From the NCBI GenBank assembly GCA_021796215.1, contig JAJYOK010000001.1:434001-498000 (forward strand): a stretch of 64,000 nucleotides of DNA, given 5' to 3'. Origin of the DNA: Bacteroidota bacterium (GTDB lineage Bacteria > Bacteroidota > Ignavibacteria > UBA10030 > UBA8401). The notes under the pieces were generated by a model. That model was not told the origin of the DNA. It saw only the letters and a program-made list of their open reading frames with translations, and ran no database searches. Numbering within the stretch: the first letter of the stretch is position 1; each line of letters opens with the position of its first letter. Positions 47,346 to 47,659 of this stretch are shown here, one piece after another. The translations under genes and the position numbers were made by a program.

Positions 47346-47374
47346 TTGAAATCATTCCTCATGATTCGTATATT
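47346..47374 (+). promoter_or_regulatory. sigma70-type promoter of the tRNA-Ser array
   Basis: TTGAAA (47346-47351), 17-nt spacer, TATATT (47369-47374), reading toward the tandem units and tRNA. The start would be near 47381, 10 nt before the first unit. TATATT is also the -10 of the promoters at 48956 and 51537. Confidence 0.65.
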
Positions 47375-47390
47375 AACATGTTACAGAATT

Positions 47391-47576
47391 GGTGAGCTGG
47401 CAGAACGGCTATTGCATCCCGTTGAACGGGACGTCCGCAGAGGAAATTTTTTGGTGAGCTGGCAGAACGGCTATTGCATCCCGTTGAATGGGACGTCCGC
47501 AGAGGAAATTTTTTGGTGAGCTGGCAGAACGGCTATTGCATCCCGTTGAACGGGACGTCCGCAGAGGAAATTTTTT
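47391..47576 (+). repeat. Three tandem 62-bp tRNA-Ser-derived pseudo-units
   Basis: Units start at 47391, 47453 and 47515, each exactly 62 bp; unit 2 differs by one base (GAATGGG for GAACGGG). Each begins with the first 26 nt of the tRNA-Ser at 47577 (acceptor 5' strand and D arm). The anticodon arm is replaced by a six-bp hairpin with TGA as its loop (TCCCGT-TGA-ACGGGA). A short variable-arm-like GTCCGCAGAGGAA and a run of six T come last. The T arm and 3' acceptor strand are absent, so these cannot be working tRNAs. They would be transcribed ahead of the tRNA from 47346. Confidence 0.9.
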
Positions 47577-47659
47577 GGTGAGCTGGCAGAACGGCTATTG
47601 CACCGGTCTTGAAAACCGGCGTCCGTAAGGACTTGTAGGTTCGAATCCTACGCTCACCG
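47577..47659 (+). tRNA. tRNA-Ser (UGA anticodon)
   Basis: 83 nt, class II. Acceptor GGTGAGC pairs with GCTCACC (47652-47658), discriminator G. D arm GC...GC, anticodon stem CCGGT / ACCGG with loop CTTGAAA giving anticodon TGA, long variable arm GTCC-GTAA-GGAC, T arm GTAGG-TTCGAAT-CCTAC. CCA is not encoded. It sits directly after three 5'-half pseudo-units and directly before a GIY-YIG reading frame whose ATG begins 4 nt past the tRNA end. Confidence 0.95.

Follow-up and report, generated by a model that had tools for sequence, protein, structure and literature searches.

The two described systems closest to the locus reported here are phage SegB and the mORFs of fungal mitochondria. SegB is a free-standing GIY-YIG homing endonuclease of T-even phages that is reported to cleave within tRNA genes, with the motif RAWTSGAAC, and to drive tandem amplification of a tRNA region in phage T6 (PMC13096335; reviewed in PMC2988022). 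The mORFs occur in Glomus atp6, atp9, cox2 and nad3 and in Allomyces atp6 (PMC3630166), where an endonuclease ORF has inserted along with a substitute for the gene end, and the native end now lies displaced beyond the ORF. No tRNA-linked GIY-YIG cassette in a bacterial chromosome is described in the open-access literature searched.

Two further classes share features with the locus. Integrase-type islands in tRNA genes have a tRNA target, a rebuilt gene and a displaced 3' fragment. Cyanobacterial SDRs and the double-hairpin elements of Allomyces are small structured repeats. REPINs (PMC3116915) and the hairpin elements of sponge mitochondria (PMC2800124) are repeats of the same general kind.

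The window is a stretch of 64,000 nucleotides that falls within the Ignavibacteriales (named neighbours JACPGG010000067, PLMS01000057 and JAGVIE010000032). It contains a short tandem array upstream of a tRNA-Ser gene. We read the array as disarmed and amplified 5' pieces of a tRNA-Ser gene invaded by a homing-like, tRNA-targeting GIY-YIG element, and give this reading a probability of about 0.75. The locus runs in the order promoter, three A' units, intact tRNA, GIY-YIG gene, B' and native flank, with the following features.

47346..47374, + strand: native tRNA-Ser promoter TTGAAA-N17-TATATT (consensus scan and congener G001)
47391..47452, + strand: A' unit 1, displaced 5' pseudo-tRNA-Ser
47453..47514, + strand: A' unit 2, displaced 5' pseudo-tRNA-Ser, one base changed
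47515..47576, + strand: A' unit 3, displaced 5' pseudo-tRNA-Ser, identical to unit 1
47417..47431, + strand: hairpin TCCCGTTGAACGGGA in place of the anticodon arm (compensatory variation between genomes)
47479-47493 (one base changed), 47541-47555 and 47928-47942, + strand: further copies of the TCCCGTTGAACGGGA hairpin
47577..47660, + strand: intact tRNA-Ser(UGA) (ARAGORN; Rfam RF00005, 56.8 bits)
47664..47918 (end approximate), + strand: GIY-YIG nuclease gene, frameshifted and decayed (two-frame translations, tblastn)
47918..48011, + strand: B', displaced 3' pseudo-tRNA-Ser, covering tRNA nt 17-84 and carrying the hairpin of A'
47956..47985 (outer limits approximate), + strand: palindrome inserted into the T arm of B', with core GCCTGCTACAAAGCAGGC at 47958-47975

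The sequence-only reading had described three 62-bp units ahead of the real tRNA-Ser, and this description is confirmed. The array spans 47391-47576 with a TRF score of 421, and unit 2 differs by one base from units 1 and 3. Nucleotides 1-26 of the unit are the same as those of the adjacent tRNA-Ser(UGA), the 17-nt anticodon arm is swapped for TCCCGT-TGA-ACGGGA, and the units end in TTTTTT without a T arm. The proposed promoter is present and lies 16 bp 5' of unit 1. That reading overlooked the other side of the tRNA, where the GIY-YIG ORF starts 4 bases past the tRNA end and B' follows. B' lacks the first 16 nt of the tRNA and keeps the 3' end, and an extra palindrome breaks its T arm.

Comparison with congeners distinguishes the inserted material from the native locus. 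In congener G001 (L028) both flanks align, at 84% and 81%. There the promoter runs through tRNA-Ser directly into the native flank with no units, nuclease gene or B'. G001 therefore provides the empty homologous site of an insertion that lies beside its target and belongs to a family linked to tRNA genes. The G001 promoter has the hexamers and spacing found in the window and leads straight into tRNA-Ser, which identifies the promoter ahead of the array as the tRNA's own. The array is missing from both congeners compared. The intact tRNA-Ser of the window differs from that of both congeners by a single base, nt 50. At this one informative position the A' units have the base of the congeners and B' does not, a sequence pattern that hints at, but does not prove, which tRNA copy is the resident one.

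The sequence-only reading had offered several RNA functions for the units, namely tRNA-half-like RNAs, decoys for processing enzymes and attenuation of tRNA-Ser. Judged from their place between the promoter and tRNA-Ser, the units are likely to be transcribed, which speaks for this class of explanation. The remaining evidence speaks against it. The units are absent from both congeners, the hairpin sequence is not constant between genomes, and equivalent pieces are also found downstream of tRNAs. The T6 of the unit has no preceding terminator stem, and a single unit folds no better than its own shuffles (z -0.64). The whole 270-nt stretch does fold better than shuffles (z -2.8), as expected where tandem copies and a tRNA can pair in inverted orientation. 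The unit was dropped as a functional RNA on its fold and its lack of a terminator, and we rate this explanation as very improbable.

Other insertion types were also rejected. A group I intron in a tRNA gene with a GIY-YIG ORF was set aside because no catalytic core was found; a search of 47200-48200 against Rfam, with matches accepted up to E 1, returned only the tRNA and one weak sX4 match. An integrase-type tRNA island shares the tRNA gene target, the reconstituted gene and the displaced 3' fragment. However, the present cassette is only ~350 bp, shows 5' displacement too, and has no integrase; the GIY-YIG ORF is the sole ORF between the tRNA and B'.

Related loci were found in other genomes. 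A search for the hairpin unit near tRNA-Ser had been proposed along with the sequence-only reading. Under strict settings, 6 of 98 genomes from the order have a pseudo-tRNA-Ser that carries the hairpin, at or beside tRNA-Ser(UGA) in the loci read, and looser forms occur in other genomes. The refuting condition set with that reading, that related genomes have no copy, therefore does not hold. Equivalents occur at other tRNAs and in many independent assemblies, single-contig genomes included, which rules out a local assembly or duplication accident. The suggestion that the units are scars of repeated element insertion came close: they are part of a GIY-YIG-invaded locus of a kind that recurs elsewhere, and the repetition itself would come from tandem growth of one piece. 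The window's own genome has GIY-YIG genes next to tRNA-Pro(GGG), Pro(CGG), Ser(GGA), Ser(CGA), Leu(CAA), Asn and Ser(UGA), and at each of these tRNAs palindromes break the accompanying 5' and/or 3' fragments. In 834 kb of this genome such fragments accompany 12 of 37 tRNAs, 6 of the 12 with a GIY-YIG gene. One genome carries two tandem cassettes of GIY-YIG gene plus pseudo-tRNA and a partial third.

Most of the sampled nuclease genes are linked to tRNA genes. Among 120 sampled GIY-YIG genes of Ignavibacteriales, 94 have a tRNA gene within 300 bp, covering 22 anticodons, and all 94 are on the tRNA strand; the others mostly lie at the end of a contig or come later in a tandem array. A further sample across the phylum placed 46 of 70 within 400 bp of a tRNA, again all on the same strand. 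Since sampling was biased to query-like proteins, these proportions describe this GIY-YIG subfamily and not all GIY-YIG proteins. A sister GIY-YIG subfamily in the same genomes was tRNA-linked in 0 of 30 cases. The linked genes also obey a far-side rule. When the nuclease gene is 3' of the tRNA, a tRNA 3' piece lies on its far side (51/64, contig ends set aside), and when it is 5' of the tRNA, a 5' piece does so (40/50). No locus in this comparison had only the wrong tRNA end. The fragments often join at the anticodon, as with 1-35 and 36-90 in tRNA-Ser(GCU). The same invasion pattern is seen at two dozen or more kinds of tRNA gene across Bacteroidota and apparently represents an undescribed selfish family directed at essential tRNA genes.

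An intact gene by the ORF with the displaced native end beyond it is the arrangement of mORF-type gene-end replacement, and the tRNA loci resemble mORFs in this respect. mORFs differ in that they affect protein genes of mitochondria and displace only 3' ends; the Glomus atp6 example encodes a LAGLIDADG enzyme, and hairpins in the displaced pieces are not described in the parts of PMC3630166 consulted, whereas the pieces here carry them. SegB is alike in enzyme class and target and in having a GIY-YIG gene among tRNA genes. SegB is phage-borne, however, while the present family is chromosomal and two-sided, takes one tRNA gene at each site and many isotypes overall, leaves displaced tRNA pieces with hairpins, and encodes a protein consisting of a single GIY-YIG domain.

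G004 carries an intact homologue, which matches Pfam PF01541, and the active-site residues Y..Y.G, R, H and E are conserved across 146 proteins. A scan found the nuclease in no viral contigs or plasmids and gave two weak matches in phages. The history of the protein was followed on a tree of 104 tRNA-linked nucleases. Target isotype requires 21 changes on this tree compared with 62.1 ± 2.4 for shuffled labels, and host family requires 57 compared with 71.4 ± 2.1. The first 75 residues alone give 27 versus 62.0 for isotype and 59 versus 71.8 for host family. Nuclease lineages thus track target isotype far more than host family, the pattern expected of target-specific elements moving between hosts.

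These data bear on a nuclease-free alternative, in which tRNA genes are duplicated in tandem, spare copies decay and gain palindromes, and the GIY-YIG genes are passengers. It accommodates the fragments that occur as tandem arrays, and also the finding that, in the part of the own genome sampled, every second tRNA with fragments has no GIY-YIG gene close by. It does not predict a common strand in 94 of 94 cases next to a sister subfamily with no linkage, a far-side rule without reversals, or a nuclease tree that tracks target isotype. We consider it improbable.

The hairpins in the displaced pieces vary by genome, for example TCCTCCGAAGGAGGA, TCCGCCGAAGGCGGA and TCCCGACTGAAAGTCGGGA, with compensatory changes in the stems, and A' and B' at one locus usually have a common hairpin. 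Inserts take the form of 15-nt single hairpins, a 20-nt CCTGCC type, 22-nt and 30-nt doubles and ~54-nt composites. A perfect stem of at least 6 pairs is present in 60% of inserts and in 3% of shuffles. Clean insertions show a modest preference for loops (18/28 versus 40% expected, p = 0.008). Insert points recur across genera at Arg ATA^GAG, Ser(GCU) TTG^CTA, Ser(CGA) CTC^GAA and the T loop TTC^GA. On the other strand the SegB motif RAWTSGAAC reads as the T-loop sequence GTTCSAWTY and coincides with the TTC^GA point. Simple hairpins are ~135-fold denser in tRNA pieces than in the rest of the 834 kb, a value that depends on an approximated fragment length of 2.4 kb.

Compared with REPINs, sponge elements, SDRs and Allomyces elements, the inserts are alike in forming one or two hairpins over 20-60 nt and in showing compensatory changes. 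They differ in sitting at fixed points of tRNA pieces and being mostly absent elsewhere in the sampled genome, so that stem compensation is present and genome-wide dispersal is weak. General dispersed palindromes were rejected on the enrichment in tRNA pieces. CGTC-tagged REPs (PMC3733652) were rejected because the CGTC that follows here is itself tRNA sequence and differs in other genomes. A more specific proposal takes as primary agent a mobile palindrome of very small size, comparable to cyanobacterial SDRs or mitochondrial double-hairpin elements, that inserts into the loops of tRNAs, with the nuclease genes secondary. Standard sizes (15, 20, 22, 30 and ~54 nt), compensatory stems, recurrent sites and the enrichment in fragments, approximate as it is, agree with it. 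Copies off tRNAs are few, however, and hairpins leave both the far-side rule and the nuclease phylogeny unexplained, making this proposal very improbable. The hairpins may have been left by repair where the nuclease cuts, may be tiny mobile elements in their own right or may belong to the cassette.

In the GIY-YIG invasion that we favor, the cassette would enter a tRNA locus so that an intact tRNA stands beside it and pieces of tRNA are pushed outward, 5' pieces (A') ending near the promoter and 3' pieces (B') beyond the nuclease gene. The nuclease would cut the tRNA gene, repair would proceed from a cassette-bearing homologue by homing, and the cell would retain an intact tRNA. Short palindromes arising at or after the cut would disarm the pieces, in the window by a hairpin where the anticodon arm would be. 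Pieces or cassettes may then grow in tandem through local recombination. The 62-bp array would be such growth of a single 5' piece, with the nuclease gene decayed by frameshift. The empty site in G001, the tRNA linkage on one strand, the far-side rule, the target-following tree, the conserved active site, the recurrent insert points and the compensatory stems count in favor of this model, as do tandem cassettes or fragments at other loci. Classical GIY-YIG homing enzymes have a separate DNA-binding domain. None was found in the present single-domain protein, which among solved structures comes nearest to UPF0213 and Slx1; sequence-specific cutting by it is therefore putative. Also weighing against the model are the broken nuclease gene of the window, the position of the A' units, which no nuclease gene separates from the tRNA, the 6 of 12 fragment-bearing tRNAs in the sampled own genome without a nearby GIY-YIG gene, and the bias of sampling to query-like proteins. 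The identical hairpins of A' and B' are unaccounted for in its simplest form.

A more speculative extension would make this a natural 'cleave and rescue' system throughout the phylum. A tRNA-specific nuclease would be paired with an intact tRNA copy so that loss of the element is lethal, and a hairpin step at cut sites would leave the displaced pieces uncuttable and non-functional. We hold this extension only tentatively and think it rather unlikely. Should the invasion reading be correct, there is, beyond phages and mitochondria, a widespread chromosomal family of selfish nucleases for which essential tRNA genes are both target and shelter, and many Bacteroidota tRNA fragments and small GIY-YIG genes are explained. 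Natural nuclease-plus-rescue elements would then exist at many sites. It also raises the question of how structured hairpins reach fixed points of displaced tRNA pieces.

Several additional loci have unusual arrangements. Three 22-nt double hairpins of insert-like form are present in the window's own genome (C14; L240:7572, L242:15796 and L257:19463) with no tRNA in their 20-kb stretch. Five tandem 3' fragments of ~109 bp follow tRNA-Thr(CGT) in the same genome (C10; L271:15021-15640). Each fragment has hairpins (TGAGCC..GGCTCA) in its T loop, and no GIY-YIG gene lies close by. A 3' fragment of tRNA-Met(CAT) (nt 35-75) lies ~800 bp downstream of its gene (C36; L265:8390-9269), and the interval contains a secreted-looking ORF, possibly other cargo, and no GIY-YIG gene. 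At L024:786-1091 and L025:1164-1463 the GIY-YIG ORF runs into the downstream pseudo-tRNA and has the C-terminus RLLHPPKEGARKGL; in an intact tRNA the UGA anticodon would end this frame. Arrays of 3-5 near-identical GIY-YIG cassettes with a fixed period occur in other Bacteroidota (L301, L302, L303 and L309), the period being 450 bp in the single-contig genome G323. A hairpin GCAAAACTACG...CTTCGTTTTGC with a variable inner palindrome lies directly 3' of tRNA-Ser(UGA) in several genera (L029, L032 and L043).
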